Shown: positions 4,720-27,000 of the stretch, piece by piece
Layout: every line of letters begins with the position of its first letter
Numbering within the stretch: the first letter of the stretch is position 1
NCBI RefSeq assembly: GCF_000344135.1
Contig: NZ_BAOP01000003.1
Location: 124,001-188,000 of the forward strand
Source of the DNA: Gordonia malaquae NBRC 108250
GTDB taxonomy: Bacteria > Actinomycetota > Actinomycetes > Mycobacteriales > Mycobacteriaceae
Reading direction: 5' to 3'
Length of the DNA stretch: 64,000 bases
Notes under the pieces: model-generated
Told to the model about the DNA's origin: nothing
Databases searched by the model: none
The model's input: the letters and a program-made list of their open reading frames with translations, nothing else
Position numbers and translations under genes: made by a program

Positions 4720-5245
4720 ATGCCGTTCTTACATGCCGGATGGATGGATTCGAAAGACCACCTCCGACGTTGAAAGCCGACACCGCATCCAGCCGTCACC
4801 AACATGCCGAGCGAGCCAGTCCACAAGGCGCGCCCGCCGACTAAGGCGACAACGCGCGACACATAGCCAGCTATAGCTCGAAGCGTCGCCCAGCAGACCT
4901 CGCAACTGGCGGACGACTAGACGACAACAACAGTTGAGCCCAATTAGACCGCACGTCACGGTTCGTGCCGATAAGATACATTATGTCAACTTGAACCCTG
5001 CGTATTGCAACAGCTGAATCACTGCGGCTCCCCCATGCCCGGGCGCTTCGTTCAGTCTATGGCGTCGGGACCAGCGGATACGTACCGGTTAGGCCAGCCG
5101 CCTTCCGGCGAGGCCCCATGAGTCGCGTGGGCAGTAGCCTGGTCTCGATCGATTTCGTCGTCATTTGACCTGCAGGTATTGACCTGCCGTCTCATTGGAT
5201 GCATCATTGAATCATCAGATGAAACCGTTTCTGGTGGAGGTTCCG
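4720..5245. other. Non-coding stretch at the left edge of the mobile module
   Basis: About 525 bp without a credible gene. It is less GC-rich than the flanks (for example around 4920-4985) and shows no coding bias. The 76-codon minus-strand frame at 4729-4959 is Cys/Arg-rich without family features. The stretch probably holds the promoter of the recombinase operon and the left end of the element. I could not define an attachment site. Confidence 0.5.
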
Positions 5246-6352: not shown

Positions 6353-6681
6353 AACGCAAGGTCGATTACACGTGGCGGCTGGCGGAATTGATGGCTGCGC
6401 GCGGAATGAACACGACCACGGACTTGATCCCCTTGCTCGCCGAACGCGACATCACGTTGTCCCGTCCCCAGGTGTATCGGCTGGTCAACCAGCGACCTGA
6501 GCGGGTGTCGCTGCAGTTGATGTCGGCGTTGTGTGACATCTTCGGGTGCGGCCCCGACGCGCTTCTCACAGTCACCGCCGTCAATGCTCGCGAGCACCAC
6601 CGAGCAGCCAATGCCGGCCCGAACGTCATGCGGCTGGACCGCGCTGTGCGTCCGCGGCGCGCGAACATCCTCGACGAGTAG
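6349..6681 (+). CDS. Cro/CI-type helix-turn-helix protein of the recombinase module
   Basis: A 110-aa DNA-binding protein. Residues from about 7 to 70 form an XRE-like fold: MAARGMNTTTDLIPLLAERD, then ITLSRPQVYRLVNQRPERVS as recognition helix region, and LCDIFGCGPDALL. This pattern is typical of small regulators encoded inside integrase operons. Its ATG overlaps the stop of the recombinase gene (ATGA), so translation is coupled. The C-terminal 35 residues are basic and unrecognised. It could repress the operon or act as a directionality factor. The sequence does not decide which. Confidence 0.82.
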   Translation: MKRKVDYTWRLAELMAARGMNTTTDLIPLLAERDITLSRPQVYRLVNQRPERVSLQLMSALCDIFGCGPDALLTVTAVNAREHHRAANAGPNVMRLDRAVRPRRANILDE

Positions 6682-6706
6682 CACCACGCAATGAGGTGAA
6701 GACAGG

Positions 6707-8191
6707 ATGGAACCTGACGGCCTAGTCCCCTATCGGCCAGTACGCGGCCGACCGCGACAGGCGAGTGGAGCGTGGGTCTGCGACCGGTGCGGCAGATCGA
6801 CCACCCGGACGCAGGCACACTGGCCCGAAGGCCGAATCTGCTTCACCTGCTGGTTCACCGCGATCCACACTCACGGAACATGCCCGGTATGCGGCGTCGA
6901 ACGACTTCTACCTGGACCACCCCTGCCCGACGGCACCCCGGTGTGCGGGCCGTGCGCAGGTATCGTCGACGACTTTCGATGCAGCCGCTGCGGCGAGGAG
7001 TCCGGTCACCACCGCGGGACGATATGCGCTCGCTGCGCCGTCCGGGACGACCTACACGAGATCATGGGCGGGCCGCCGTCCGACCCAATCCTCAGCGGCC
7101 TCGTCGACGCGCTATGCGTCGCTAAGCGACCCGAGTCGACGATGATCTGGAAGCGGTCACCGAAAGTCCAGGAACTGCTCAAGGGGCTAGGAACCGGCGC
7201 CATCGCCGCCACGCACGAAGGCTTAGGCACCCTACCCAGTCGGGCAGCAGAACATCTGCGGACATTGATGGAATACCACGGCCTACTGCCTCCCCGAGAC
7301 CGGTGGCTGCCACGCTTCGAACAATGGATCGATGACAAGCTGATCGACCTGCCGACCGAGGTCGCCCGGCCCGCTCGCCACTTCGCGACGTGGCACCATC
7401 TGCGGCGGATTCGCGCAATCGCCGATGCCGGCGGCGATACCCAGCCATCGGTGCGATCGGCCAAACAAGAGATCACCGAGACCGTCAAGTTCCTGAGCTG
7501 GCTGAGGTCCACCTACGGACGCACGATCGAGACCTGCACGCAACACGACGTCGACCAGTGGATCGCAACAGGTCCGACAACGCGATACACGATCCGAACG
7601 TTCCTGGTCATCTGCAAACAAGACAGACTCAATACCGCCGTGCAGCTCGGCCACCGGGCTCCGAAGACGACACCATCCTTGACTCAAGCCCAGCGGATCG
7701 CCTGGATCAGCGAACTGCTCACTGGTGACAGTGAGACTCTCCCTTACAGAGTCGCTGGGGTCCTGATTCTGCTGTATGCGCAGCCGCTGAAAAGCATTGT
7801 CCGACTGCAGACATCATCGATCATCGACGGCAATCCGATGGCGATCACTTTCGGCAAGCACCCCGTCGACGTGCCCAAACCGTTCGCTCAACTCGTCCGC
7901 GACGTGCTCGCCCATCGCACGAATCTACGCACCAGTGGACACGGCAATCCCTGGTTGTTTCCCGGCACGCATGCCGGAGATCATCTCCATCCCGACACGA
8001 TCATGCATCGCCTGCGCCTGATCGGCATGAGCAACCTCGGTGCCCGCAACAGCGCACTCGACGACCTCGTGCTCGAGTGCCCTCCGTCCGTCGTCGCCGA
8101 CGCATTGGGCTACAGCCATCAGGTTGCGTTCCTTCACGCTGAACGCTCCGGCGAAACGTGGGCTCGGTATGCCGGTCGACGACTGCGGTGA
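6707..8191 (+). CDS. Zinc-ribbon tyrosine-recombinase-like protein, active site apparently degenerate
   Basis: 494 aa. Residues 24-125 hold repeated CxxC pairs (CDRCGR, CFTCW, CPVCG, CGPCAG, CSRCGE, CARC), a zinc-binding N-terminal region. The C-terminal half resembles a tyrosine recombinase: a SAM-like segment (FLSWLRSTYGRTIETC) followed by a catalytic-fold region. Where the first Arg is expected (yGLR-E) it reads YAQPLKSIVRL. The H-x-x-R box reads GARNSA, and the second His box reads LGYSHQ. A Tyr remains near the end (WARYAG). It probably assists the intact recombinase at 5246 in DNA binding or target choice. It starts 25 bp after the HTH gene. Confidence 0.72.
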   Translation: MEPDGLVPYRPVRGRPRQASGAWVCDRCGRSTTRTQAHWPEGRICFTCWFTAIHTHGTCPVCGVERLLPGPPLPDGTPVCGPCAGIVDDFRCSRCGEESGHHRGTICARCAVRDDLHEIMGGPPSDPILSGLVDALCVAKRPESTMIWKRSPKVQELLKGLGTGAIAATHEGLGTLPSRAAEHLRTLMEYHGLLPPRDRWLPRFEQWIDDKLIDLPTEVARPARHFATWHHLRRIRAIADAGGDTQPSVRSAKQEITETVKFLSWLRSTYGRTIETCTQHDVDQWIATGPTTRYTIRTFLVICKQDRLNTAVQLGHRAPKTTPSLTQAQRIAWISELLTGDSETLPYRVAGVLILLYAQPLKSIVRLQTSSIIDGNPMAITFGKHPVDVPKPFAQLVRDVLAHRTNLRTSGHGNPWLFPGTHAGDHLHPDTIMHRLRLIGMSNLGARNSALDDLVLECPPSVVADALGYSHQVAFLHAERSGETWARYAGRRLR

Positions 8192-8239: not shown

Positions 8240-8770
8240 TCACTGGTCCTCAGCCGGTACCTGCCCCTCGTTCTGCGATGGTGATTCGTGTGGGTCGACA
8301 ATGATGCACACGACGAGGGTGAGGGCGCCTAGGACGATGAACGTGTCGGCGAGATTGAACGTGGGCCACCAGCCGGTGTGTAGGTAGTCTGTGACTTTTC
8401 CGTCCGGTATGCGGTCGATGATGTTAGCGATCGCTCCGCCCAGGACGGCGGCAATCGCGACGCGCCAGAGCAGTCCGTGGGAGTCTGCGGTACGCCAACC
8501 GAGGACCGCGACTCCACACGTGACCGCGGCGGGAATGACCAGCAGTACCCACCCCGGAGCGGTGGCGGCAAAGGAGAAGGCCGCGCCCGAATTGAACGCT
8601 AACTGCAGGTCCACCGGCCCGGCCTCTATTCGGGTGCCGTCAAGTGCATCGACTGCCCATGCCTTGACGGCCACGTCAACGATGACGAAGGTCAGGGCCA
8701 GCAGCAGCATCCCCAGGCGGCGGGCATATCCCGACCTACCGCCTGACACCGCCGGACCAGACGGGGTCAT
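8240..8770 (-). CDS. lspA: Lipoprotein signal peptidase (LspA) in a metal-efflux operon
   Basis: A 176-aa membrane aspartyl peptidase that removes signal peptides from prolipoproteins. Four hydrophobic segments are visible. The family boxes FNSGAAFSFA, GGAIANIIDRIP and FNLADTFIV carry the two catalytic Asp residues. Its ATG overlaps the stop of the P-type ATPase gene by 4 nt, so it is the last gene of cmtR-ATPase-lspA. LspA paralogues are known next to Cd/Pb ATPases (for example PbrABC-type clusters), where they are thought to help lead or cadmium resistance. The housekeeping copy is presumably elsewhere. Confidence 0.92.
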   Translation of the reverse strand: MTPSGPAVSGGRSGYARRLGMLLLALTFVIVDVAVKAWAVDALDGTRIEAGPVDLQLAFNSGAAFSFAATAPGWVLLVIPAAVTCGVAVLGWRTADSHGLLWRVAIAAVLGGAIANIIDRIPDGKVTDYLHTGWWPTFNLADTFIVLGALTLVVCIIVDPHESPSQNEGQVPAEDQ

Positions 8771-11717: not shown

Positions 11718-13272
11718 GACACCCCTCCAGTCGGGTGTACCCGTCGATAGGGCTTACGGGGCGTCGGGGTGAGTCCCCTGGAGTGGTGGGGTTTGGTGGC
11801 TCGGTGACGGTGGTGGACACGCCGCACGGGGTCGGTGTCGCCGGTTGGGCGGGCCATCGCGTGATGATCAGTGAGTTACCGGCAAGTGACTCAACTGAAA
11901 GGCATTCACGCGATGACCCACGACCATTCTGCCCTGCTCGACCAACTGACCGAAATCGCCTCACTGCGCTCTGATGAACTCGCCCTGGTCGGGGTGCTCC
12001 CGGAGATCCTGCGGGCCGGCCTGCAGGCCCTGATCGAGGCCGAGGCGACCACCAAGATCGGCGCCGGCCGCTACGAGCGCTCCGCAGACCGCACCACCGT
12101 CCGCAACGGCCACCGACCCAAGACGATCTCGACCCCCGCCGGTGATGTGCAGGTGAAGATCCCCAAACTGCGCGCCGGGTCGTTCTTCCCGGTCCTGTTG
12201 GAGCGACGACGCCGGATCGACAAAGCCTTGTACGCGGTGATCATGGAGGCCTACGTTCAGGGCATCTCCACCCGCAGCGTCGACGATCTGGTGCGCGCCA
12301 TGGGCGTGGACTCCGGCGTCTGGAAAAGCGAGGCGTCCGGCGATCTGTGCAGGTCTAGACGCCGAGATCGCCGAATTCCGCGGCCGTTCGCTGACTCATG
12401 CCGAGTTTCCGTATGTGTTCTGTGATGCCACGTTCTGCAAGGTCCGCGTCGGCGCCCACGTGGTCTCCCAAGCGTTGGTGGTGGCGACCGGGGTGTCGGC
12501 GACCGGGACTCGCGAGGTGCTCGGTACCGCGGTCGGCGAGAGTGAGTCCTTCGAGTTCTGGAAGGACTTCCTCACGAGTCTGAAAGCCCGTGGTCTGCAC
12601 GGGGTGCACCTGGTGATCTCTGACGCCCATTCAGGTTTGAAAGCTGCTGTGGCACAACAGTTCGTGGGCGCGGCGTGGCAGCGGTGCCGGGTGCATTTCA
12701 TGCGGAATCTGCATGGGGTGGTGCCGGCCAAGCAGCAGCCGGTCGTGACTGCCGGGGTGCGGACGATCTTCGCGCACACTGACCGCGAAGACGTTGCGGC
12801 GCAATGGGATCAGGTCGCGGACAGTTTCCAGGCACCGATGCCGAAGGTGGCGGCGATGATGCGAGAAGCCAAACCGACGTGCTCGCGTTCTTGCCGTTCC
12901 CGAAATCCCATTGGCAGAAGATTTGGTCGAACAATCCGATCGAGCGGCTGAACAAGGAGATCAAACGCCGCGCCGACGTCGTGGAGATCTTTCCTAACCC
13001 GGACGCGTTCCTCCGGCTGGCGACAGCGGTGGTGATCGACGCCCACGACGAATGGCAAGTCACCCGCCGCTACATGTCCGAGGTGTCCATGGACGAGCTC
13101 CGCGCGGTCCTCGCCGAGAAGGCGAAAGCCGCCGCACTACTGGACGAGCAAGCCCAGCTCGCATAGCGTTCACAACGACTCGTTGATCAGAACGCGTGGG
13201 CCCCACGCCCGATCCGAAGTCCACCACCCCACGGGGCTCTATCCAATGCTGTTCAGTCCAGGGCGGTGTGAC
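11718..13272 (+). mobile_element. IS256-family insertion sequence (decayed), ends approximate
   Basis: The span contains one transposase gene broken by two frameshifts. The left end near 11718 (TGACACCCCTCC...GATAGGGC...GGGG) and the inverse of the right end near 13272 (TCACACCGCCCT...GATAGAGC...GGGG) share an imperfect match over roughly 45 bp, the expected layout of terminal inverted repeats. No target duplication could be read with confidence. The 60 bp between the truncated methyltransferase and the left end are unexplained. Confidence 0.65.
11913..13166 (+). pseudogene. IS256-type transposase with two frameshifts
   Basis: Three consecutive reading-frame pieces make one transposase. 11913 to about 12340 covers MTHDHSALLDQ to GVDSGVWKSE. 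About 12345 to 12870 has the first Asp in YVFCDATFCKV, the second in ISDAHSGLKAA, and the CRVHFMRNL segment. About 12870 to 13166 has the Glu in [15 protein letters not shown] and the C-terminal helix. So the DDE triad is all encoded but not in one frame. Frame changes lie near 12335-12345 and 12870-12876, each compatible with a single-base indel. It is either dead or affected by sequence errors. Repairing both would give about 415 aa, normal for the family. Confidence 0.88.
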
Positions 13273-13915: not shown

Positions 13916-15403
13916 ATGGTTGAGGTTTCGAGGCGATCGGTGCTCATCGGAGGGTTGGCGGCGCTGGGGGTCGGCGTACTCGGCGCGTGCAGCCCGGACC
14001 GCCCTCAACGCCCTGAGTCGTCGCCGTTGCCGGGACCGCCGTTGCAGGCGTCGCCGAAGCCGGGGCAGAAGGTGGTGGAGGCGTCTTTGACGGCCCGACC
14101 GGTGGCTGTCGATCTCGGTGCGGGCATTATCGCGAACACCTGGGCCTACGGCGACGAGGTTCCCGGGCGAGTGGTTCGCGCCACGGCGGGCGACTTCCTG
14201 CGAGTCAACGTCGACAATCAACTTCCTGCGCCGACGACCGTTCACTGGCACGGCATCCGACTTCGCAACGAAGCCGACGGAGTCCCAGACGTCACGCAGC
14301 AGGCGATCGCACCCGGAAACCGGTTCGTGTACGCCTTCACGGCCCCCGATGCTGGGACGCACTTCTTCCACCCCCACGTCGGGGCACAGCTCGATCGGGG
14401 TCTGTACGCGCCGATCATCATCGATGATCCGGCCGATGCGGGCGACTACGACGCGGAATGGATCGTCGTCCTCGACGACTGGACGGACGGGGTCGGGAAG
14501 AGCCCCGATCAGATTCTGGCCGACTTTCAGGCCGAGTCCGGACCGTTGAAGTCGGGCATGGGCGGGATGGATCACTCGTCGATGCCGGGAATGAACCACG
14601 GCAACTCGTCGCTGGGTGACGCCGGAGACGTCGCCTACCCGCACTATCTCATCAACGGCAGGGTTCCGGAGGCGCCGACCGAGTTCCGCTGCCGACCGGG
14701 TCAACGAGTCCGGGTGCGACTGATCAACGCGGCATCGGACACGGTCTTCAAGGTCGCACTCGCCGACCACACGATGACGGTGACGCACAGTGACGGCCAT
14801 CGGGTCAACGACAAGCAGACCGGAGCCCTGTACGTCGCGATGGGCGAGCGCTACGACGTGACCATCACCGCCGGAGATGGTGTGTTCCCGCTTGTCGCGG
14901 CAGCCGAAGGCAAGAGTGGCCAAGCCTTGGCGTTCCTGCGGACAGCTTCGGGACAGGCCCCGCCGAGCACCATCCGCCCGCGCGAACTCGAGGGCCCAGT
15001 ACTTCTTGGCGCCGATGACCTGGCCGCGGCGGAATCGGCACGATTGCCCGACCGCGATCCCGACACCACACTCAAAGTCACTTTGAACGGGCAGATGTCG
15101 CCGTATGCCTGGGGGATCAACGGCAAGAAGTACGGCGAGGACACACCGCTGACTGTCCGGCCCGGCCAGCGGCTGCGAATGCAGATCACGAACTCGACGA
15201 TGATGGTGCATCCGATGCACATCCACGGCCACACCTGGTCACTGCCCGACCGCTCGGGTTTGCGCAAGGATACGGTGCTGATCCGTCCGATGGGCCGCGT
15301 CAACGTCGACCTCGACGCCGACAACCCGGGCGCCTGGGCTCTGCACTGCCACAACATCTATCACATGGAGACCGGCATGATGACCACGCTCCGATACGCG
15401 TAG
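13916..15403 (+). CDS. Multicopper oxidase, Tat-exported lipoprotein
   Basis: 495 aa. The N-terminus SRRSVLIGGLAALGVGVLGAC combines a twin-arginine-like pair (R6 R7) with a lipobox ending at C25, so a folded, lipid-anchored outer-face enzyme is predicted. Copper ligands are visible: HWH at 110-112, HFFHPH at 149-154, HPMHIHGH, and HCHNIYHMETGM near 477-488 (T1 Cys and Met). A Met/His-rich loop (about 215-229) resembles those of CueO/CopA-type cuprous oxidases. It probably oxidises Cu(I) to the less toxic Cu(II). AAAGG at 13902-13906 supports this start. The L,D-transpeptidase gene follows after a strong palindromic operator. Confidence 0.93.
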   Translation: MVEVSRRSVLIGGLAALGVGVLGACSPDRPQRPESSPLPGPPLQASPKPGQKVVEASLTARPVAVDLGAGIIANTWAYGDEVPGRVVRATAGDFLRVNVDNQLPAPTTVHWHGIRLRNEADGVPDVTQQAIAPGNRFVYAFTAPDAGTHFFHPHVGAQLDRGLYAPIIIDDPADAGDYDAEWIVVLDDWTDGVGKSPDQILADFQAESGPLKSGMGGMDHSSMPGMNHGNSSLGDAGDVAYPHYLINGRVPEAPTEFRCRPGQRVRVRLINAASDTVFKVALADHTMTVTHSDGHRVNDKQTGALYVAMGERYDVTITAGDGVFPLVAAAEGKSGQALAFLRTASGQAPPSTIRPRELEGPVLLGADDLAAAESARLPDRDPDTTLKVTLNGQMSPYAWGINGKKYGEDTPLTVRPGQRLRMQITNSTMMVHPMHIHGHTWSLPDRSGLRKDTVLIRPMGRVNVDLDADNPGAWALHCHNIYHMETGMMTTLRYA

Positions 15404-15460: not shown

Positions 15461-15499
15461 ACCACCCCATCTACTAAGCTGCTTAGTAGATGGGGTGGT
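15461..15499. promoter_or_regulatory. BlaI-type operator O1 in a perfect 19-bp hairpin (before L,D-transpeptidase)
   Basis: The core CTACTAAGCTGCTTAGTAG (15471-15489) is CTACTAA-N5-TTAGTAG. The inverse symmetry continues perfectly outwards to 15461 and 15499 around a single T (15480). It lies 47 bp before the transpeptidase start and 57 bp after the oxidase stop, so it may act both as a repressor site and as the oxidase terminator. The same core recurs at 16810, 17989 and 21716. Confidence 0.85.
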
Positions 15500-15545
15500 T
15501 TCGCCCCTCGCGGTCGCGTTCTGTGCACACGAGAGGTCGTATCTC

Positions 15546-16760
15546 ATGGTCAAAATCCCTAGAGGCGGTCCCGTCGCCCTCCTTCTTGCTGCCGTCCTGA
15601 TCATCGCAGGGTGTTCGCAGCCATCCCAGGATCCGGTGGCCGATCCATCGATTGCGTCGGCCGCGCCGTCGATCGAGCTCACCCCCGACGACGGCGCGAG
15701 CGGAGTCGATCCCCTCGCCCCGGTCACGGCCACCGTTCGGGGCGGCACCCTCGAGGAGGTGACGCTCGTCAACGAGGAGGGGCGGCCCGTAGTCGGCATT
15801 ATGACACCGGACCGCACCTCCTGGAAGGTCGGTGAACCGCTCGGCTACGGCCGGAACTACACCGTGACCGCCACGGCTCGCGGCGGCGGACAGGGCGCCT
15901 CGCGCACCGGGTCGTTCACCACGCTCACCCCCGACAATCAGGCCGGCGTCACCCTGCAGACGACCGGCGGCACGCCGCTGTCGACCGGAGGGACCTACGG
16001 CGTCGGAATTGTCATCGTTGCTCACTTCGACGAGCCGATCGGCGACCGCGCCGCAGCCGAGCGGCGACTGTCGGTCCGCACCACGCCCGGAGTCGAGGGC
16101 TCCTGGTACTGGCTCGACGACCAGAACGCCCACTGGCGGCCGCGCGAGTACTACCGTCCTGGCACCGAGGTCACCGTCGAGGCGCGGATCTACGGCGTCG
16201 ACCTCGGCGGCGGCCTCTACGGTCAAGAAGATGTCGAGGCGACTTTCACGATCGGTGACTCGCACGTAGCGATCGCCGACGATCGCACCAAGCAGGTCAA
16301 GGTGTACGAGAACGGCAACCTCGTCCGCACGATGCCGACCTCGATGGGGATGGGTGGCACTGAGGTCGTCGGGGGCACCGAGATCAGCTTCTGGACTCAG
16401 CGTGGCATCTATACGGTGCTGGATAAGGCGAATCCGGTCGTCATGGACTCGTCGACCTACGGTCTGCCGATCAACTCCAGGCTTGGCTACAAGCAAACCA
16501 TCGCCTACGCCACGAGGATCAGCACCGACGGTGTCTACCTGCATCAACTGGACGAGACCGTCTGGGCGCAGGGAAACACGAATCTCTCGCACGGCTGCCT
16601 CAACCTCAATGGCGCCAACGCCCGCTGGTTCTACCATTTCTCGATCCCGGGCGACGTCGTCGAGGTCCGCAACACCGGCGGGGCGCCGCTGGAGGTTTGG
16701 CAGAACGGCGACTGGGGCGTGCCCTGGGAACAATGGCGAGCAGGCAGTGCGCTGGCCTGA
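15546..16760 (+). CDS. L,D-transpeptidase (YkuD) lipoprotein with Ig-like domains
   Basis: 404 aa. Lipobox LIIAGC ends at C23. Two Ig-like domains of the mycobacterial Ldt type occupy about 40-245, and a YkuD domain follows with the catalytic SHGCLNL (C351) and an upstream YLHQL histidine strand. A C-terminal tail (EVWQNGDWGVPWEQW) matches LdtMt2-like enzymes. It forms 3-3 crosslinks in peptidoglycan on the outer membrane face. GAGAGG precedes ATG 15546. A BlaI-type operator lies 47 bp upstream. Its presence in a copper island suggests copper-responsive cell-wall crosslinking. Cysteine enzymes of this class are copper-sensitive, which may explain the regulation. Confidence 0.93.
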   Translation: MVKIPRGGPVALLLAAVLIIAGCSQPSQDPVADPSIASAAPSIELTPDDGASGVDPLAPVTATVRGGTLEEVTLVNEEGRPVVGIMTPDRTSWKVGEPLGYGRNYTVTATARGGGQGASRTGSFTTLTPDNQAGVTLQTTGGTPLSTGGTYGVGIVIVAHFDEPIGDRAAAERRLSVRTTPGVEGSWYWLDDQNAHWRPREYYRPGTEVTVEARIYGVDLGGGLYGQEDVEATFTIGDSHVAIADDRTKQVKVYENGNLVRTMPTSMGMGGTEVVGGTEISFWTQRGIYTVLDKANPVVMDSSTYGLPINSRLGYKQTIAYATRISTDGVYLHQLDETVWAQGNTNLSHGCLNLNGANARWFYHFSIPGDVVEVRNTGGAPLEVWQNGDWGVPWEQWRAGSALA

Positions 16761-16801
16761 TCAGAACTCCTGCGAGACGATCACGAATAGATCTCACTCC
16801 G

Positions 16802-16836
16802 GCAACGATCTACTAAGGCGATTAGTAGATCGTTGC
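16802..16836. promoter_or_regulatory. BlaI-type operator O2 in a perfect 15-bp inverted repeat (before M23 peptidase)
   Basis: GCAACGATCTACTAA (16802-16816), GGCGA, TTAGTAGATCGTTGC (16822-16836). The core CTACTAA-N5-TTAGTAG is 16810-16828, identical in layout to O1 but with unrelated outer arms. That argues that the core is the conserved protein site. It lies 41 bp after the transpeptidase stop and 164 bp before the M23 gene. Confidence 0.85.
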
Positions 16837-17000
16837 GGTGACATTGACGGCGTTGCGGCCCGCGCTGACGTCGGCCCGTCGACCGCGCTGACCTTCATGT
16901 TCTGTGATTGAAGGCGGGTCACACATGCATTCTCCGTCTGGTCGAATGTCCAGTTTGTTACTGGTGGTGCCAGTGGTGTGCAAGTGTCATAGTGACGTCC

Positions 17001-17987
17001 ATGACTAGAGATCCCCTCGTCGGACTCACCTCCTCGCGATCATCGGCAACGCTCACGCCTCGGGTGCGGCACTGGGTGGGCACGGCCCCTGTCGCTCTTG
17101 GCCTGGCCGCGGCTGTTGCGGCGGGGACGCTGAGTCCAGCGCCCGCCGTGGCTGAGACCGCCAACGGTGTTGACGGTCACGTTGTGGTCGAGCTGGCGGC
17201 CATCGTCAAAGACAGCGTGCGGGCCGTGGCCGGACCTGACGGACTGGTGAAGCTGCTGGCCCCGATGGCCACCGTGACTTCATGTCTGACCGTCTCTGCC
17301 GAGACCGACCCCGCCGCAGGCGATCGGGTCGGAGCTCTGGGGTGCTTCGCGGCCGCCGGGACTGCCTTCGGTGGGCAGGCGCCATTGATCCTCGACGCGG
17401 TCCCTGTCAGGCGCCTACTGGCGACACTCGCTGCCGCCGTCGCGCCGCACGACCCGTCGATTTCGCACGGGGGATCCTCCGATCGGCCGGCCCCGGACGA
17501 CGCCCGCCCCGCTCCCGGGCAGACTGCGGCCACCCCCACCCCCGGCGGGGTCTTGACCTCCACGTTCGGTGACGGTCGCGGTCATCAGGGCATCGACATC
17601 GGCAACCGCCTGGGAGCGCCCATCCTGGCGGTCGAGGACGGCGAGGTCATCAACTCAGGGCCCGCGGAGGGGTTCGGCCTGTGGATCCGCATCCGCCACG
17701 CGGACGGTACTGTCACGACCTATGGTCACAACGATCAGAACTCGGTCAACGTCGGCGACCGTGTGCGAATGAGTCAGCAGGTCGGCACTGTCGGCAGCCG
17801 CGGGGTCTCAAGCGGGCCGCACGTGCACTTCGAGGTCGCCGACCCCGCCGGGACGGCGATCGATCCGCTGCCGTGGCTGCAGGCCCGCGGCGTCACCATC
17901 GCCACCGAGGCATCGCCGCCGCCGACTGTGACGCCTCCGGACGTGTCGGTGCTGGCTCGGGGGCAGGTGCGCGACCGCCGACCCTGA
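17001..17987 (+). CDS. Secreted M23 (LytM-type) zinc metallopeptidase
   Basis: 328 aa from ATG 17001; an earlier GTG-like start at 16908 would add a Cys-rich segment unlike a signal peptide. Signal region: basic start, hydrophobic 28-45, then APAVAETA. The C-terminal LytM domain has zinc ligands H195 and D199 in HQGIDIG and H274-V-H276 in GPHVHFEV, all intact, so it should be an active peptidoglycan endopeptidase. The central region has no motif I recognise and contains two Cys. Operator O2 lies upstream and O3 immediately after its stop. Together with the transpeptidase it forms a cut-and-crosslink pair under the same control. Confidence 0.9.
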   Translation: MTRDPLVGLTSSRSSATLTPRVRHWVGTAPVALGLAAAVAAGTLSPAPAVAETANGVDGHVVVELAAIVKDSVRAVAGPDGLVKLLAPMATVTSCLTVSAETDPAAGDRVGALGCFAAAGTAFGGQAPLILDAVPVRRLLATLAAAVAPHDPSISHGGSSDRPAPDDARPAPGQTAATPTPGGVLTSTFGDGRGHQGIDIGNRLGAPILAVEDGEVINSGPAEGFGLWIRIRHADGTVTTYGHNDQNSVNVGDRVRMSQQVGTVGSRGVSSGPHVHFEVADPAGTAIDPLPWLQARGVTIATEASPPPTVTPPDVSVLARGQVRDRRP

Positions 17988-17988
17988 C

Positions 17989-18007
17989 CTACTATGTCTC
18001 TTAGTAG
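17989..18007. promoter_or_regulatory. BlaI-type operator O3 (before the blaI operon)
   Basis: CTACTAT (17989-17995), GTCTC, TTAGTAG (18001-18007), one mismatch from the O1/O2 core and without extended arms. It ends 17 bp before the first gene of the operon that contains the BlaI repressor and the M56 protease, so it implies autoregulation. Confidence 0.85.
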
Positions 18008-18024
18008 ATGGAGAGGGGTTGGCA

Positions 18025-18315
18025 GTGACGCGAACAAGGGTCAGTCATCAACTCGCCGTGGCGGTCGGCGTTCTCGCAGCAGTCCTCAGCGGTGCAATGA
18101 TCATGGTTTATGCCGAGACCGTTGACGTGCGAGGGCGCCCACATGCGCACCGCCTCGACTGGCCGCCGACCTGGCATTGGGTGTGGGCGGCAATAGGAGC
18201 GGCGATCGTGGCGCTCGTCGCGCGAGCGCTGCTGCGGCGACTGGTATTCACCGCGCACTTTCGCCGTGCTTCGACGACTGCCGACCCGGCGGACGGGACC
18301 GACTCGGCGGGCTGA
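18025..18315 (+). CDS. Small two-helix membrane protein, first gene of the blaI operon
   Basis: 96 aa from GTG 18025, with GAGAGGGG at 18011-18018. Hydrophobic helices lie at about 10-30 (LAVAVGVLAAVLSGAMIMVYA) and 52-72, with a short outer loop DVRGRPHAHRLDWPPTWHW rich in His and Trp between them and a charged cytoplasmic tail. No family is recognised. The loop could bind metal or sense the envelope. Operator O3 lies just upstream, and the next gene follows after 35 bp. Confidence 0.65.
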   Translation: MTRTRVSHQLAVAVGVLAAVLSGAMIMVYAETVDVRGRPHAHRLDWPPTWHWVWAAIGAAIVALVARALLRRLVFTAHFRRASTTADPADGTDSAG

Positions 18316-18350
18316 GACACAGATGCTGACCAAGACAAGAAGGAGTGGCC

Positions 18351-18779
18351 ATGCTGCGTGAGTGGTCCCTGGTGCGCTGGGTGGTGGCAGCAGTCACCGC
18401 CACCGCGATCGGATTGGCCGTCGGTATTCCGTCCGGGCTGATTGACACGCCGTGGTATTCACGCATGACGCCGACCCTGTGGTGGAACTACCCGATCTGG
18501 CTGGCGACCGCAGTGTTGGGCGGCCTGATCGCGGCCACCTACATTCAAGCCCGGACGGCGCCGCGGATGGAGAAGAAGCTCTGGGCGACGGTCGGTTCGG
18601 CGTTGGCTGTCGGATGCCCAGTGTGCAACAAGGTGGTGGTCGCGGTCGTCGGTGTCAGTGGAGCCTTGACTGTCTGGGCGCCGTTGCAGCCGATCCTGGC
18701 TGTGGTGTCCGTGGCATTGTTGGGTTGGGCCCTTCAGCGACGGCTGCAGGGCGAACGGCGATGCGCGGTCGCGGGCTGA
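18351..18779 (+). CDS. Membrane protein with GCPVCN motif
   Basis: 142 aa, ATG 18351 with AAGGAG just upstream. Four hydrophobic segments are predicted (about 10-28, 42-62, 76-98, 104-125). The third begins with VGCPVCNKVVVAVVG, a CxxC pair placed at a membrane edge, suggestive of redox or metal handling. Similar proteins occur in actinobacterial copper islands, but I know no assigned function. It is second in the operon controlled by O3, followed after 49 bp by blaI. A role as thiol partner of the CcdA/TlpA pair encoded nearby is possible but inferred only. Confidence 0.65.
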   Translation: MLREWSLVRWVVAAVTATAIGLAVGIPSGLIDTPWYSRMTPTLWWNYPIWLATAVLGGLIAATYIQARTAPRMEKKLWATVGSALAVGCPVCNKVVVAVVGVSGALTVWAPLQPILAVVSVALLGWALQRRLQGERRCAVAG

Positions 18780-18828
18780 CCGCGCCGTTTGCCGCAGTCA
18801 GTGCGGTGGGGTGAGGGAAAGGTGTGCG

Positions 18829-19182
18829 ATGCACGGTCTGGGCGAGCTGGAGGCGCGCATCATGGAGGTCTTCTGGCGCGATGACGCGGACAAGCGCGTC
18901 CGCGATGTGCTCGAAGGGCTGGACGCGGAGCGCGAACCTGCGTACACGACGGTGATGACGGTGATGGACAACCTGTATCAGAAGGGCTGGCTGGGACGCG
19001 ACCGGCGAGGCCGGGCGTATTGGTATCACTCGCTCAAGTCGCGTGAGCAGACCGTCAGCGATGCCTTGCGTGCGGTGCTGGCCGACGCCGGCGACCCGTC
19101 TGGGGCGCTGCTGCATTTCGTGCGGCACGCCTCCGACGAGGAAAGTGCAGCAATCGCTCAGGGCCTGCGGGAAAGGGACTGA
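18829..19182 (+). CDS. BlaI/MecI/CopY-family repressor
   Basis: 117 aa winged-helix repressor. It has the family opening LGELEARIMEVFW, the recognition-helix segment AYTTVMTVMDNLYQKGWL, and the wing GRAYWYHSLKSREQ, followed by a C-terminal dimerisation helix. It lacks the CxCx4CxC copper site of CopY, so it should be inactivated by proteolysis, as BlaI is by BlaR1. The next gene encodes an M56 protease. The TACTA/TAGTA half-sites found four times in this island are typical of BlaI operators. ATG 18829 follows AAAGG at 18818-18822. Confidence 0.92.
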   Translation: MHGLGELEARIMEVFWRDDADKRVRDVLEGLDAEREPAYTTVMTVMDNLYQKGWLGRDRRGRAYWYHSLKSREQTVSDALRAVLADAGDPSGALLHFVRHASDEESAAIAQGLRERD

Positions 19183-19186
19183 CACG

Positions 19187-20125
19187 GTGGTCACGGCAGC
19201 ATTGTTGGGCGTGAGTGCGCTGGCTGCGACTCTGGTCGGTGACCGGGTCCTCGACGTCCTGATCGCGCGTGATCGACTCACGGCCAGGACCCTGCTGCGG
19301 GTGTGGGCCGCGCTGACCGCTGGCGTGTTCGTCGCCGCTGCGAGCTCGGTGGCCATCGTCGCCGTTCCCGGCCATGCGAGCGTCGTGGGTGGGGCGCTGC
19401 AGACCTGCCTGAACGGTCTCGACAGTGCGGTCAGCCGCACCATCGAGTTGGTCGCCGGGCCAGGCGTGTTCGCACTCGTCCTGGCCGTGTCCGGGTGGCG
19501 GGCTGCGGCGTTCTGGCAGACCGCCCGTCGCCGTGACCTCGAGATCGGGGCGCACCACGCACTGTTGGCGCGATTGCTGAACCCGACGGGCGCCCGGTCC
19601 CCGCTGTGGCTGCCGACGAGCACACCCATGGCGTACAGCACGCCCGGACGGACCCGGGGCCTGATCGTGGCCAGCGAAGGGCTGAGGCAGCGACTGGACC
19701 CGGAGGCGTTGTCGGCGGTGATGGCTCACGAACAGGCGCACGTGCATGGTCACCATCATCTGTTCGTCCGCGTCGCCGACTGTCTCTCCCACGCGGTGCC
19801 CTGGCTACCACTGACTCGGCAGGCGAGTCCCATCGTGCGCGCCCTGGTCGAGTTCGACGCCGACGCACACGCCGCGCATGAGCACGGCGATGATGCCGTC
19901 GTCCGCGCGATCACGCACGTTCACCCGACCGCGCCGGCGGGCGCTCTAGGGATCGCTCGTGACTGCGTCGAACTGCGGTTGCATCGACTAGGCCGTTCCG
20001 CCGCTCCCGGCACGCGACCGTCGCGTAGTTCGTCTTACGCTGCCCCGACAGCCGCCGCGATGTTCCCAGTTCTGCTATTCCTCGCCGGTCTGGCCACCGT
20101 GGTCCTGGCCGCCTGCCCTGCCTGA
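19187..20125 (+). CDS. M56-family membrane metalloprotease (BlaR1-like, without sensor domain)
   Basis: 312 aa, GTG 19187, four bases after blaI. It has N-terminal membrane helices (about 1-20, 40-60, 92-112), a cytosolic zinc protease domain with HEQAH at 181-185 followed by VHGHHH and an E/D-rich third-ligand segment (ALVEFDADAHAAHEHG), and a final helix near 290-310. No penicillin-binding sensor domain follows, so the signal is not a beta-lactam captured as in BlaR1. Upon a membrane or envelope signal it probably cleaves the neighbouring BlaI and induces the regulon. It converges with ccdA. Confidence 0.9.
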   Translation: MVTAALLGVSALAATLVGDRVLDVLIARDRLTARTLLRVWAALTAGVFVAAASSVAIVAVPGHASVVGGALQTCLNGLDSAVSRTIELVAGPGVFALVLAVSGWRAAAFWQTARRRDLEIGAHHALLARLLNPTGARSPLWLPTSTPMAYSTPGRTRGLIVASEGLRQRLDPEALSAVMAHEQAHVHGHHHLFVRVADCLSHAVPWLPLTRQASPIVRALVEFDADAHAAHEHGDDAVVRAITHVHPTAPAGALGIARDCVELRLHRLGRSAAPGTRPSRSSSYAAPTAAAMFPVLLFLAGLATVVLAACPA

Positions 20126-20234
20126 CCCTCCCAGGAACCGACCGGTGCTCGCCGGCCCGTGGCATCGATCGCGATCGAGAGTCCGCACGCCGACGCGCAC
20201 CGTCAGCCCGGGGCCAGGCTTGTTGGTCGCCCGG

Positions 20235-21044
20235 TCACACGGGCAGGACGACGTCGTTGACCAGCGCCATTCGAACCCAGTCCACGAATACATTCCACAA
20301 GCCCGTCACCAACATCACGCCGACACCGACCAACAGGACGCCCCCGACGATCTGAATGGTGCGGGCGTGGCGGCGGAGGAAGCCAAGGCTGCGGACAGCC
20401 CATGCCGATGAGAACGCCAGGACCACGAACGGGACGCCGAGGCCGAAGCAGTACGCGACGACCATCAGCGCGCCGCGGAACGGCGCGTCGCCGTTCGTGC
20501 TGATCGCTAGCCCGATGACGGCACCGAGGGTGGCACTGCTGCACGGTATCCACCCGATGGCGAATACGGCCCCCAGCAGTGGCGCGCCGACCATACCCGT
20601 GCGGCGGTGAGGCGTCATGCGACGTTCGCGCCGGAAGAACGGAACCACGCCGACGAACACCAAGCCCATCACGATGGTCACGACCCCGCCGATGCGTTGC
20701 ATCACTGCCAGGCGGGCCTGATCGAGGAAGATCGAGGTCATACCGAACAGCGCCACCGTGGCCAGGACGTAGACGAGCGTGAAGCCGAGGACGAACAGCC
20801 CTGCCGCGGCAACCACCCGCCACCGGCCGGACTTGGGGCCCTCACCGACATGGACGGCGGGAGCTTCGGCGCCGACCAGCCCCGCCAGATACGACAGGTA
20901 GCCCGGTACCAGGGGCACCACGCACGGCGAGGCGAACGAAATGATCCCGACCAGCGCCGCGACACCCAGGCCCAGCAGCAGCGGACCACTGGTGACCGTG
21001 GCCGCGAACGTCGTTCCCAGATCCGCCAAATACAACTGACTCAC
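20235..21044 (-). CDS. ccdA: CcdA/DsbD-type transmembrane thiol-disulfide transporter
   Basis: 269 aa, GTG 21044, overlapping the tlpA stop by 4 nt. Six to seven transmembrane helices are visible. The first carries SFASPCVVPLVPGYLSYLAG and the fourth IPCSSATLGAVIGLA, which supply the two intramembrane Cys that pass electrons from cytosolic thioredoxin to the outside. It is the partner of the TlpA-like lipoprotein encoded just upstream. Two Cys-proximal prolines and the FVLGFTLVYVLATVALFG helix fit the CcdA family. It belongs to the O4-controlled operon. Confidence 0.92.
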   Translation of the reverse strand: MSQLYLADLGTTFAATVTSGPLLLGLGVAALVGIISFASPCVVPLVPGYLSYLAGLVGAEAPAVHVGEGPKSGRWRVVAAAGLFVLGFTLVYVLATVALFGMTSIFLDQARLAVMQRIGGVVTIVMGLVFVGVVPFFRRERRMTPHRRTGMVGAPLLGAVFAIGWIPCSSATLGAVIGLAISTNGDAPFRGALMVVAYCFGLGVPFVVLAFSSAWAVRSLGFLRRHARTIQIVGGVLLVGVGVMLVTGLWNVFVDWVRMALVNDVVLPV

Positions 21045-21715
21045 TTCGGTGCCGCCTTCTCCTCGGCCACCGTCAAAACGGCGGCACGCAATTCGGCCTC
21101 GGTGATCGCTCGCAGGAACAGCTTCGCCGGGCGGTGCTGTCGGTCGAGGATCAGAGTGGTCGGGACAACGCCCACGGGGACTCCGAGTGCGGCGAGGGTG
21201 GCGCCGCCGTAGTCGAAGATCGACCGATAGGGCACCTTGCGGTCGGTGGTGAAATCCTGCGCGGTCGAGCGCGAATCACGAAAGTTGATCCCCACGAACT
21301 GCACCCCACGGGCGCGGGTGTCGCGGTAGACGTTCTCCAGTGCCTGAAACTCGGTACGGCACGGTGGGCACCACGAAGCCCACACGTTCACCACAACAAC
21401 GTCACCGCGGTAATCGGCGAGCCGGACAGTTCCCCGGTCGAACAAGTCCTCACCCTCGACCGCGCCGATCGCGCGCCGCTTGGCTGGCGCGTAATCGATG
21501 ACCGTCTTGCCGTCAGGGGAGACGAACTGATTGGCGCGCACCGCAGACACGGCATCAGTGCCTGTACCGCACGCGGTCAGCACCGTGGCACCGATGAGCA
21601 TCGCGCCGACGAGCGCCTGCACGCGTCGCCGACGGCCACGCGCGCAGTCCGGCATCCTCTCTGCGATCCGGTACCGGTCCTCGGGAATTTGTCTGGGTTC
21701 CACAACCACCTCCAT
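21041..21715 (-). CDS. TlpA-like thioredoxin-fold lipoprotein
   Basis: 224 aa from ATG 21715. Lipobox VLTAC ends at C49, so a lipid-anchored exported thiol protein is predicted. The thioredoxin active site is WCPPC (C116, C119), preceded by VVVVNVWAS and followed by a cis-Pro segment GVVPTTLILD. It would reduce extracytoplasmic disulfides, fed by CcdA. The operator pair O4 abuts ATG 21715 directly, leaving no room for a ribosome site, so the message may be leaderless, or a later GTG (21703) may be used. Reduction of oxidised Cys in the L,D-transpeptidase or metal proteins is a reasonable inferred role. Confidence 0.9.
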   Translation of the reverse strand: MEVVVEPRQIPEDRYRIAERMPDCARGRRRRVQALVGAMLIGATVLTACGTGTDAVSAVRANQFVSPDGKTVIDYAPAKRRAIGAVEGEDLFDRGTVRLADYRGDVVVVNVWASWCPPCRTEFQALENVYRDTRARGVQFVGINFRDSRSTAQDFTTDRKVPYRSIFDYGGATLAALGVPVGVVPTTLILDRQHRPAKLFLRAITEAELRAAVLTVAEEKAAPK

Positions 21716-21749
21716 CTACTAAGAAGCGTAGTACTAACCGGCTTAGTAA
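21716..21749. promoter_or_regulatory. Two overlapping BlaI-type operators O4a/O4b (before tlpA-ccdA)
   Basis: O4a is CTACTAA-GAAGC-GTAGTAC (21716-21734). O4b is GTACTAA-CCGGC-TTAGTAA (21731-21749). Both keep the 7-5-7 layout of O1-O3 and share the 4 bp GTAC. O4a touches the tlpA start codon, so a bound dimer would cover the transcription start. Confidence 0.85.
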
Positions 21750-21798: not shown

Positions 21799-24066
21799 TT
21801 AACCCGGCCAGCGGTCCAAGACTGCGCGCGTCGTTGATCCTGGATGCAGGTCGAGTCTGCGCAGCAGTTGTGCGTTCAGGGCCACGACGATGGTCGACAC
21901 CGACATGAGGATCGCACCCACCGACATCGGCATGACAAATCCGATGGGTGCGAGCACTCCGGCCGCAAGCGGGACGGAGATCAGGTTATAACCGGCCGCC
22001 CACCACAGGTTCTGTTTCATCTTGCGGTACGCCGCTCGCGACAGTTCGATAACCGAGAGCACGGAGCGAGGATCGTCGCTGGCCAGGATGACACCGGCCG
22101 AGGCGATAGCGACATCAGTGCCTGCGCCGATCGCCAGGCCGATATCGGCCTGGGCGAGCGCGGGAGCATCGTTCACCCCGTCTCCGACCATCGCCACCCT
22201 GCGACCTTCGTCCTGCAGTTGAGCTACCTTGGCGGCCTTGTCTTCGGGACGGACACCGGCGAAGACACGGTCGATGCCGAGTTCATGAGCAACGGCATTC
22301 GCGACAGCTTCAGCGTCACCGGTGATCATCACGACCTCGACACCCTGCGCATGAAGCGCATCGACAGCCTCGCGTGACTCGCTGCGGATCTCGTCGGCGA
22401 GTTTCAACGCTCCGATCAGTCGCCGGTCTTGAATGACATGCAAGATGATCGCCCCGTCCGCACGCCAGCGATCAGCAACCGGCAGTTCGTCGAGGTGTTC
22501 TTCGGCGAGCAGGTGCGGGCCCCCGACCCGCACTGTCGTTCCCTCGATCGTCGCGGTGACCCCTACTGCGGGCGATGAGGAGAAATCGCTGCTGGTCGGG
22601 ACTCTGAGGCGGTGGCGATCGGCGGCACCGACGATCGCGCGTGCGAGGGGATGCTCGCTGTCGGACTCGGCGGCCGCCGCCAACGCCAGCAACTGATCCT
22701 GGTCGACGTCGTCGACGGCAAAGACGTCCGTGACAGTGGGTTCGCCCCGGGTGAGCGTGCCGGTCTTGTCGAACAGGACGCTGTCGACCGTCCGCATGCT
22801 CTCCAACGCAAGTCGGTCTTTGACGAGTACGCCGCCCCGAGCCGCACGCTCGGTCGCGATCGAGACGACGAGCGGAATCGCCAGGCCCAGAGCGTGCGGG
22901 CACGCGATCACCAAGACGGTGATCGTGCGAACCACCGCTTCATCGGGCAAGCCGATCGCCGTCCACACAATCGCGGTGATCGCCGCGGCTCCGAGCGCAA
23001 ACCAGAACAGCCATCCGGCCGCGGTGTCGGCGAGTCGTTGAGCACGAGACGACGAGTTCTGAGCATCGGCGACAAGCCGTTGGATCCCGGCGAGAGTCGT
23101 CTCGTCGCCGGTGGCGGTGATCACGATTCGTAGTCCTGAATCGGAAGCGACGGTCCCCGCGGTCACGCTGTCGCCATCACTACGGGTGACCGTCTGGGAC
23201 TCACCGGTGACCATCGATTCGTCCATCGCCGCACGCCCCTCGACGATCCGACCGTCGGCCGGGATGCTCCCGCCGGGGCGAATGACGACGATGTCGCCGA
23301 CCTCCAGATCAGCGGGGGCCACGGCCATGATTTGCCCGTCTCGGACACGTTCTGCTTGATCGGGCAGAAGCGCGGCCAGGGAGTCCAGAGCCGAGGTGGT
23401 CTGAGCCAGCGACCGCATCTCGATCCAGTGGCCCAGCAGCATGATGACGATCAGCAGCGCCAATTCCCACCAGAACTCCAGTTGATGACTGACAAGTCCC
23501 AGCGTCGCCGCCCAGGACGCAAAGAACGCCACCGTGATCGCTAGTGCGATCAGAAGCATCATCCCGGGTTTCCGCGTCCGCAGCTCGCTCAGGGCACCGG
23601 CCAGGAACGGCCAGCCGCCCCAGAGGTACATCACGGTGCCGAGCGCGGGCGCGATCCATTCGGCCCACCCAGGGACCGAGTAGCCGACCAACATCGCGAA
23701 CATCGGTGAGAAGGCGACCACCGGAACCGCGATGATGAGGTTGATCCAGAACAGTCGGCGAAACTCCCCGACGTGGTCACCGTGACCGCTGTGGTTCCCA
23801 TGCTGCCCGCCGGGGTGCCCGTGCCCACTGTGGTCCCCGTGCTCACCGTCGTGGTCCAGGTGCCCGCTATGCCCGCCGGGGGCGCCATGCTCACCATGAT
23901 GGTCGGCGTGGTCGTTGTGACCTCGGCCGTGCTCGCTGTGCCCGCCGTGCGTGGGGTCAGCGACAGCATTGTGGCTCTCAGGCACTGCCGCGTCATGGCG
24001 GTCGATGCCGTGTATGGGGGCGCCGCCGACATCTCGGTGGTGGTGGTGCGCGTGGGGGTTAGTCAT
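21799..24066 (-). CDS. copB: CopB-type copper P1B-ATPase with His-rich N-terminus
   Basis: 755 aa. The first 100 residues are an extreme His-rich tail with repeated GHSGH/HGEHG-like units, a copper-binding or sensing region. Then come membrane helices, the TGES actuator, the transmembrane motif CPH (in VIACPHALGLAIP), DKTGTLTRGEP, and GDGVNDAPALAQ. CPH defines the P1B-3 group (CopB; Cu(II)/Cu(I) export). A late helix with YNLISVPLAAG and MSVGAILMS fits the group. It is encoded on the minus strand next to tlpA-ccdA but upstream on its own transcript; no BlaI-type site was found before it. Confidence 0.93.
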   Translation of the reverse strand: MTNPHAHHHHRDVGGAPIHGIDRHDAAVPESHNAVADPTHGGHSEHGRGHNDHADHHGEHGAPGGHSGHLDHDGEHGDHSGHGHPGGQHGNHSGHGDHVGEFRRLFWINLIIAVPVVAFSPMFAMLVGYSVPGWAEWIAPALGTVMYLWGGWPFLAGALSELRTRKPGMMLLIALAITVAFFASWAATLGLVSHQLEFWWELALLIVIMLLGHWIEMRSLAQTTSALDSLAALLPDQAERVRDGQIMAVAPADLEVGDIVVIRPGGSIPADGRIVEGRAAMDESMVTGESQTVTRSDGDSVTAGTVASDSGLRIVITATGDETTLAGIQRLVADAQNSSSRAQRLADTAAGWLFWFALGAAAITAIVWTAIGLPDEAVVRTITVLVIACPHALGLAIPLVVSIATERAARGGVLVKDRLALESMRTVDSVLFDKTGTLTRGEPTVTDVFAVDDVDQDQLLALAAAAESDSEHPLARAIVGAADRHRLRVPTSSDFSSSPAVGVTATIEGTTVRVGGPHLLAEEHLDELPVADRWRADGAIILHVIQDRRLIGALKLADEIRSESREAVDALHAQGVEVVMITGDAEAVANAVAHELGIDRVFAGVRPEDKAAKVAQLQDEGRRVAMVGDGVNDAPALAQADIGLAIGAGTDVAIASAGVILASDDPRSVLSVIELSRAAYRKMKQNLWWAAGYNLISVPLAAGVLAPIGFVMPMSVGAILMSVSTIVVALNAQLLRRLDLHPGSTTRAVLDRWPG

Positions 24067-26662: not shown

Positions 26663-26691
26663 CCATCGACATACAGGACCTCAACTTGCAT
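26655..26691 (-). pseudogene. N-terminal remnant of a thioredoxin-like gene (second copy of 32815-33129)
   Basis: From ATG 26691 the frame reads MQVEVLYVDGC and then leaves the family, whereas the complete gene at 33129 starts MQVEILYFEACPNW. The match stops at the transposon debris. It shows that copy 1 of the arsenic region once carried this gene too. Confidence 0.6.
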
Positions 26692-26730
26692 AGCTCGAGT
26701 TTCCCCGACTCGCCCAGAAAAGAGAGATCC

Positions 26731-27000
26731 GAACTGCTGACACCCGCGAACTTCGGGTTTCCCGACTCCGTCGTCGTCCGGCTGCGTACGTGGCTCGACG
26801 CGTGGACGGCGAACTTCGCCGACGCACCGAGCGACGACCAGCACACGTGGCGTCGCGGATTCGACGTCGCCGGCTGGCTTCACGAAGGCGATACACTGGC
26901 CGACCTCATCGCCGAGTCGCTCCCCGACTACACCGTCGAACGCCAGTATCGGACTTACGCAGCTAACGCCGTGCGGCGCGATGCCGATCACCCCGGCTAA
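26731..27000 (+). pseudogene. C-terminal fragment of a DinB-like gene (second copy of 33230-34072)
   Basis: From GAACTGCTGACACCCGCGAA the encoded protein (ELLTPANFGFPDSVVVRLRT to TYAANAVRR) is almost identical to the last 83 residues of the complete gene at 33230, with Thr for Ala and Ser for Ala as the visible changes. The first two thirds are missing and the end reads DADHPG instead of TP. No start codon with a ribosome site precedes it. It is a dead relic joining the transposon debris to arsR. Confidence 0.8.

Follow-up and report, generated by a model that had tools for sequence, protein, structure and literature searches.

A proposed switch on metal-resistance islands of soil bacteria that probably responds to metal damage at the cell surface

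The DNA analysed here (the window) is a stretch of 64,000 nucleotides from Gordonia malaquae NBRC 108250, positions 124001-188000 of contig NZ_BAOP01000003.1 (contig C113 of genome G000 in our numbering; host genome 4.47 Mb), and it carries an island in which a repressor of the BlaI family and an M56-type membrane protease are encoded together. The pair is read here as a switch that stands on metal-resistance islands of soil bacteria and probably responds to metal damage at the cell surface. We put at roughly 0.57 the probability that this switch, triggered by a thiol-reactive metal or by thiol damage in the envelope, serves to renew envelope enzymes and not to export metal. Judged from sequence comparison, the predicted regulon is real and recurs. 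Its operator, its target genes, their link to BlaI, a conserved pair of protease cysteines with its predicted side of the membrane, and the separation from the chromosomal (core) BlaI system are supported by the evidence set out below.

The initial annotation had placed five copies of one operator, CTACTAA-N5-TTAGTAG with small variants, at the promoters of an L,D-transpeptidase gene (ldt), an M23 endopeptidase gene, the presumed operon with blaI and the M56 gene, and tlpA-ccdA. This was borne out: when the window was scanned for the pattern with at most three mismatches, and the expectation was taken from 100 shuffles, five sites with 0-2 mismatches were found against 0.05 expected, and none of the 100 shuffles reached five (Table 1). 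The perfect dyads surrounding the first two operators are much longer than the consensus site. The looser pattern TACTA-N7-TAGTA has eight sites in the whole host genome, five of them in the window cluster; a control pattern read backwards gives seven matches genome-wide, so that the weight rests on the clustering and not on the genome total.

Recurrence of the operator was assessed in loci gathered for the most part via the BlaI protein alone, without regard to the genes it might control. The query, aligned from eight BlaI proteins, yields 80 named loci, the best of at least 590 confirmed stretches, and matches, with core BlaI counted in, 333 of the 397 genomes searched in the order. Among those best 80 loci, the closest to the window are from Gordonia spumicola (BlaI 100% identical) and G. 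sihwensis (99%). Forty regions of at most 20 kb were fetched around the best genome matches, and the window, eight annotated plasmid regions with DNA similarity to it and four regions found through the operator were added. Removal of 15 of the 133 loci as near-duplicates left 118 (2.20 Mb): besides the window, these are 107 found by BlaI alone, seven plasmid regions and three found through the operator. Genes were called in them with a home-made program that missed or misread some. The 107 BlaI-only loci contain 151 exact sites of TACTA-N7-TAGTA, at most two of any other letter ordering and at most 12 of any other spacing; in the 118 loci there are 174 exact sites, 0-3 for each of 29 alternative letter orderings and at most 15 for other spacings. 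An exact site is present in 61/107 loci (71/118), and a site with at most one mismatch in 77/107 (87/118). The operator, BlaI-M56 and such genes recur together on plasmids of Mycolicibacterium, Rhodococcus, Gordonia and Tsukamurella, and co-occurrence in other genomes, on which the initial annotation had staked its proposal, was found on these plasmids, in the 107 loci and in two hold-out regions described below. The 20 loci surrounding core BlaI-M56 pairs (396 kb) contain no exact site, and none of 17 families was detected there at E 1e-15 in a database confirmed to be searchable.

The dyads could in principle be transcription terminators or other hairpins, and those at window sites 1 and 2 (39 and 35 bases, both perfect) are capable of forming one. 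The placement of the sites, however, makes this reading hardly credible. Indeed, 140 of the 174 exact sites fall between -150 and +300 of a called start, compared with 36% of random points; 60 lie between divergent genes and only 7 between convergent ones (background 4313 vs 3638); for sites with a start in range, the nearest called start is a median of 44.5 bases away; and both spacing and letters are fixed. The terminator reading was rejected on the divergent/convergent count, and because of their start-proximal and divergent-gene placement the dyads are taken to behave as operators.

The content of the predicted regulon was read from the genes next to the sites. The 2117 genes called in the 118 loci were clustered by sequence; clusters were named from the Pfam matches of a single member each, and BlaI from annotation. 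In order of p, the clusters most enriched at sites are a membrane protein with a CPxCN motif (15/19), NlpC/P60 hydrolases (20/35), DsbA-type thioredoxins (15/22), M23 (10/14), cytochrome oxidase subunit I (8/11), BlaI (28/98), one cluster without a name (6/7), SLT (5/5), Lnt (8/13), TlpA-like proteins (11/25), Lgt-like proteins (4/4), a PQQ-repeat protein (4/4), DUF3105 (5/7), Lgt (4/5) and L,D-transpeptidases with an Ig-like domain (IgLdt, 10/30). The CPxCN protein is thus the most enriched operator target among all clusters, and its motif is intact in 19/19 members. A stricter permutation (5000 rounds) reshuffled targets only among genes of the same locus with promoter room; to count as a candidate target a gene had to have 60 or more bases free upstream, which was the case for 216/276 in the 118-locus test and for 191 in the 107-locus test. 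In the latter, the four families proposed initially (ldt, M23, tlpA and ccdA) stand jointly at sites in 21/49 cases (null 12.5, uncorrected p 0.003), and M23 is the only one of them significant singly (8/9, p 0.003). In the same test NlpC (17/30) and CPxCN (9/10) each reach p 0.0002, followed by CtaD+COX3 (8/9, p 0.0006), DsbA (9/13, p 0.001), BlaI (19/64, p 0.006), Lnt+Lgt (8/10, p 0.006) and multicopper oxidases (8/16, p 0.013). The 118-locus test, which unlike the 107-locus test includes the seven window-similar plasmid regions and the three operator-found regions, gives 27/58 for the four families when the window is left out (p 0.0002), with p 0.049 for tlpA alone and 0.097 for IgLdt alone. 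On the strength of the enrichment in the permutation test, the general core of the predicted regulon consists of genes for cutting the wall, for thiol chemistry and for lipoprotein maturation, together with the oxidase. It is wider than the set named at first, to which it adds NlpC/P60, DsbA, Lnt, Lgt, cytochrome oxidase and the CPxCN protein. The L,D-transpeptidase and tlpA-ccdA belong to it in the window and in several relatives (loci L015-L018, L021, L029 and L031-L033 in our numbering), without general enrichment. Wall and thiol targets co-occur in 14/118 loci.

Two genome regions outside the 118, picked for clustered operators, served as hold-outs. In the first, sites stand before genes for Lgt, TlpA (twice), NlpC, IgLdt, a P-type-ATPase-like open reading frame (ORF) and two unnamed genes, one of which by eye adjoins a complex I-like cluster; for 3/11 sites no start was called within range, and one of these three probably lies before a misread blaI; in the second, they stand before CtaD, TlpA, DUF3105 and one unnamed gene. 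By eye, an exact operator in another island (L197, G414:C16:26812) adjoins a complex I-like gene cluster. An operator also lies near an Ag85-like esterase (PF00756), possibly a mycolyltransferase, in two mycobacterial islands (L031 15035-16051, and L030).

Efflux genes were considered as targets and rejected, as P-type ATPases (2/12, p 0.70), CDF (2/9), MFS (2/14) and CsoR (2/5) are not enriched at sites in the 107 loci, nor are these classes in the 118-locus test. Genes for CsoR, ArsR, MerR or response regulators are annotated in the eight plasmid regions, and for this reason metal export seems to be left to other regulators. The metal setting itself is marked: by tblastn a P-type ATPase is present in 40/118 loci and a multicopper oxidase in 34/118, against 0/20 core loci for either. 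The copper setting proposed at first holds for the window, where a multicopper oxidase and a copper-type P1B ATPase flank the whole ldt/M23/blaI/tlpA-ccdA set, but it does not cover all eight plasmid islands, since two of them carry mercury genes and one of these also a cadmium gene.

The window protease has 312 residues, with four long helices (2-27, 33-59, 82-131 and 285-309) that fit membrane spans and with HEQAH at 181-185; like BlaR1 and MecR1, it thus has an HExxH motif between transmembrane helices. AlphaFold2 run on a 66-sequence alignment gave a mean predicted local distance difference test score of 83.7. As had been proposed, a C-terminal penicillin-binding sensor domain is absent, the protein stopping just past its final helix. 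Its assignment to M56 is less direct: when the host genome was searched with PF05569 (Peptidase_M56) at E up to 0.001, the core M56 was reported and the island protease was not, and Pfam gives the latter only a weak M48 match. The best Foldseek neighbours are Ste24p and BlaR1, at weak E-values, with 8exq second (probability 0.97, E 0.086, template-modelling score 0.33). The island protease is therefore classed as M56-type indirectly, from HEQAH together with the BlaR1-like arrangement of modelled helices.

Two cysteines of this protease, C74 between the second and third transmembrane helices (TM2 and TM3) and C310 at the C-terminus, are conserved to 90% or more in two alignments, one of 70 and one of 66 sequences. 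Both are present in 93/109 BlaI-paired M56 proteins of the locus set when exact columns are required and in 102/109 when near positions are allowed; among core M56 proteins 0/30 have both and one has the tail cysteine. In locus L053, the BlaI of which falls inside the core clade, the M56 protein lacks both aligned cysteines. Mean K+R and D+E counts are 1.04 and 1.84 in the TM2-TM3 loop, 5.16 and 1.10 in the segment after TM3, and 2.46 and 0.36 in the segment before the last helix; these charges put the loop outside and the flanking segments inside, so that C74 and C310 should both face outward and are predicted to be extracytoplasmic. The pair may be taken as a clue to the inducing signal. Sensing of the metal or oxidant could instead fall to another protein, such as the CPxCN membrane protein, and the M56 protease would then only pass the signal on. 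The CPxCN gene does lie between operator 3 and blaI, and its intact motif and the operator near the start of 15/19 members fit such a role, but a tblastn relative of CPxCN is present in only 24/118 loci, while 102/109 M56 proteins have the cysteine pair, and we regard this alternative as quite improbable.

The window BlaI matches Penicillinase_R (PF03965) along the whole protein (85.2 bits, cut-off 22.6, residues 4-113), and blaI has a dyad, operator 3, at its own promoter. In agreement with the initial annotation it has no CopY metal motif, as it contains no cysteine at all; a CopY-type copper repressor was ruled out on this ground, and the CopY model TIGR02698 scores 37.1 bits against a cut-off of 121.95. 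In a BlaI tree of 137 rows built on few columns (120), the 28 core BlaI proteins group together in one clade (support 100/97) in which L053 is the sole other row, whilst the window BlaI lies outside it in a separate clade of 57 rows (support 100/94). Some islands (L015 10168-13189; L030-L032) carry two BlaI-M56 pairs of different BlaI clades within a few kb.

Core and island operators also tend to differ in their inner bases. Among 75 sites listed for 81 genomes of the family, 18/19 clustered sites are without an inner C (5') or G (3'), whereas 53/56 scattered sites have at least one (the TACTAC-N5-GTAGTA type); the Fisher value of 2.5e-13 is overstated, as the 19 clustered sites come from three islands. 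The split is only a tendency, because 39/174 sites in the 118 loci bear a core-like inner C or G. It suggests nevertheless that island and core BlaI may use two operator codes in one cell. The three host sites outside the window cluster (G000:C77:17975, C100:24193 and C103:124580; L004, L005 and L006) are of the core type and precede atpB in the atp region (by eye), a flavohaemoglobin-like gene and the gene for cytochrome bd oxidase subunit I (Pfam), which suggests that core BlaI may govern respiration in G. malaquae. Core BlaI might bind the island operators as well, making the island part of the core beta-lactam/energy regulon; TACTA-N7-TAGTA is common to both, the host sites at atp, cyd and flavohaemoglobin-like genes carry it, and so do the island sites with core-like inner bases. 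The core clade, joined by L053 alone, and the inner bases of clustered sites (few as the islands are) speak against this, and with the core-locus control they disfavour membership in the core regulon, which we consider very unlikely.

The M. tuberculosis BlaI (Rv1846c) and its partner are said to have been described by Sala in 2009. The island system resembles them in repressor family, in a short M56 partner and in a related operator, but the island BlaI lies in another clade, usually has other inner operator bases and has other targets. Around core pairs of the M. tuberculosis type there are no metal genes, and their M56 proteins, unlike that of the island with C74/C310, have no cysteine pair. 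The atp-region site in the host genome agrees with what passages of three reports (PMC5874750, PMC7924339, PMC12565901) say of M. tuberculosis BlaI, namely that it has a role at the atp operon.

In the mechanism that we favour, the island BlaI would repress an envelope-renewal regulon via TACTA-N7-TAGTA dyads. The trigger, a thiol-reactive metal (copper and perhaps mercury or cadmium too) or envelope thiols in oxidised form, would arrive at the outer side of the membrane, where the M56 protease would sense it through its outer cysteines C74 and C310; the signal would cross the membrane, the inner protease domain would inactivate BlaI, and the freed dyads would let the regulon open. The steps from signal to derepression follow the analogy of BlaR1-BlaI, and BlaI binding, BlaI cleavage, the inducer, sensing by the cysteines and the benefit are what we infer. 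In the window the regulon would comprise, in addition to the switch itself, the L,D-transpeptidase, the M23 hydrolase, the CPxCN protein and TlpA-CcdA; other islands would add NlpC/P60 hydrolases, DsbA, Lnt and Lgt (lipoprotein maturation) and cytochrome oxidase. NlpC/P60 and Lnt have catalytic cysteines. Copper inhibits the L,D-transpeptidases of E. coli and V. cholerae, according to passages of PMC11390936. Since many of the targets work with cysteine, thiol or copper, new enzyme copies may take over from poisoned ones, with efflux under other regulators.

Several points weigh against this mechanism. No site with at most one mismatch is found in 30/107 loci (31/118), so that a different operator may serve some of these BlaI proteins; the Foldseek likeness of the protease to BlaR1 is weak; and L059, L074, L080, L094 and L101, although outside the core clade, are also without the loop cysteine. 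Catalysis by M23, Lgt and SLT does not depend on a cysteine, so thiol damage does not explain every target. The p-values are uncorrected, the classes beyond the first four were picked post hoc, and the loci share descent. Singly, IgLdt (5/17, p 0.27), TlpA (4/11, p 0.27) and CcdA (4/12, p 0.32) are not enriched in the 107 loci; because of this, and because the joint value drops to p 0.003 in that test, the first interpretation is as a whole only partly supported.

The same regulon could also answer another signal, the M56 protease sensing wall damage or beta-lactams in the manner of BlaR1/MecR1, with the cysteines being structural. Its targets do include wall enzymes (M23, NlpC/P60, SLT, L,D-transpeptidase), BlaI-M56 is the classical beta-lactam pair, and the PDB chain nearest to the window BlaI is 2g9w, which we take to be a mycobacterial BlaI. 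The protease is nevertheless without a penicillin-binding sensor domain, thiol, lipoprotein and oxidase genes are also targets, metal genes abound around island pairs whereas the 20 core loci have no P-type ATPase or multicopper oxidase gene by tblastn, and core M56 proteins are without the cysteine pair; a wall signal is accordingly judged unlikely. A wider form of the renewal reading has about an even chance of being right: a hitherto undescribed, horizontally moving class of actinobacterial metal resistance that works by renewal and not by export, in which an outer two-cysteine M56 protease would react with thiol-reactive metals and BlaI would open a set of spare envelope enzymes (those that cross-link and cut the wall, handle disulfides and mature lipoproteins, and cytochrome oxidase), using an operator code largely apart from that of core BlaI.

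Accounts of metal resistance in bacteria usually speak of export, oxidation or sequestration. If the mechanism is right, mobile islands would carry a dedicated envelope repair arm that marks which actinobacterial envelope enzymes metals poison, sensorless M56 proteases would gain a concrete candidate sensor in two outer cysteines, and the previously uncharacterised CPxCN membrane protein family would be named as part of the response. In the staphylococcal BlaR1-BlaI and MecR1-MecI systems a membrane protease is paired with a dyad-binding repressor, with a dyad at their own operon. The island has all three elements, but its protease has no penicillin sensor and its presumed targets are envelope-building genes, not beta-lactamase or PBP2a. 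CopY belongs to the same superfamily as the island BlaI and shares the copper setting, but its cysteine motif is missing from the latter. The cop region of Corynebacterium glutamicum (cg3281-cg3289) is described in passages of PMC3140484 as a copper-induced island with a multicopper oxidase, a CopB ATPase and tlpA, under CopRS; multicopper oxidase, CopB and tlpA are common to the window island, but control there is by the two-component system CopRS, and the word 'transpeptidase' is absent from the main text of that report. A published description of a BlaI/M56 envelope regulon was not found in the open-licence literature, most subscription papers lying outside this scope; the initial annotation knew of no described system with this set of genes.

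Table 1. Genes and putative operators of the island, in window coordinates.
Feature	Position	Strand	Basis and remarks
Multicopper oxidase	13916..15403	+	Pfam Cu-oxidase families; island context, own start without operator here
Operator 1 (putative)	15471..15489	.	0 mismatches; before L,D-transpeptidase; within perfect dyad 15461-15499 (39 bases)
L,D-transpeptidase, Ig-like domain	15546..16760	+	Pfam Big_10 and YkuD; HGCLNL motif read in sequence; ATG 15546
Operator 2 (putative)	16810..16828	.	0 mismatches; before M23; within perfect dyad 16802-16836 (35 bases)
M23 endopeptidase	17001..17987	+	Pfam Peptidase_M23; ATG 17001
Operator 3 (putative)	17989..18007	.	1 mismatch; before operon ORF 18025-CPxCN-blaI-M56
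Small ORF, first gene of presumed blaI operon	18025..18315	+	ORF list; without Pfam or NCBIfam match
CPxCN-motif membrane protein	18351..18779	+	Several hydrophobic stretches by eye; without Pfam or NCBIfam match
BlaI-family repressor	18829..19182	+	Pfam Penicillinase_R; nearest PDB chain 2g9w
M56-type membrane protease	19187..20125	+	HEQAH 181-185; cysteines C74, C310; without sensor domain
CcdA-like membrane protein	20235..21044	-	DNA similarity to annotated CcdA genes; without Pfam match
TlpA-like thiol-disulfide protein	21041..21715	-	Pfam AhpC-TSA/Redoxin; WCPPC read in sequence
Operators 4 and 5 (putative)	21716..21734, 21731..21749	.	2 mismatches each; share 4 bases; before tlpA-ccdA
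Copper-type P1B ATPase (context)	21799..24066	-	TIGR01511 567.5 bits vs cut-off 397

Within the island, tlpA-ccdA lies on the opposite strand, tail to tail with the presumed operon; the tlpA start given in Table 1 is the earliest possible one (21715), and the real start may be more internal. No two-component regulator was spotted by eye in the ORF list of the window island, and no family search was aimed at one. ORFs resembling pieces of a mutator-type transposase (11871-13166, by eye) and recombinase-like genes (5195-8191) are signs of mobility. At 8240-8770 a signal peptidase II gene (lspA; Pfam Peptidase_A8) has as neighbours, judged by eye, a cation P-type ATPase gene and one for an ArsR-like regulator, with no operator, and lspA adjoins a P-type ATPase in island L017 as well. 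Further downstream, a nearly identical protein stretch occurs twice (26686-27000 and 33230-34072), one copy being a fragment, and the two flank arsenic-type genes (by eye).

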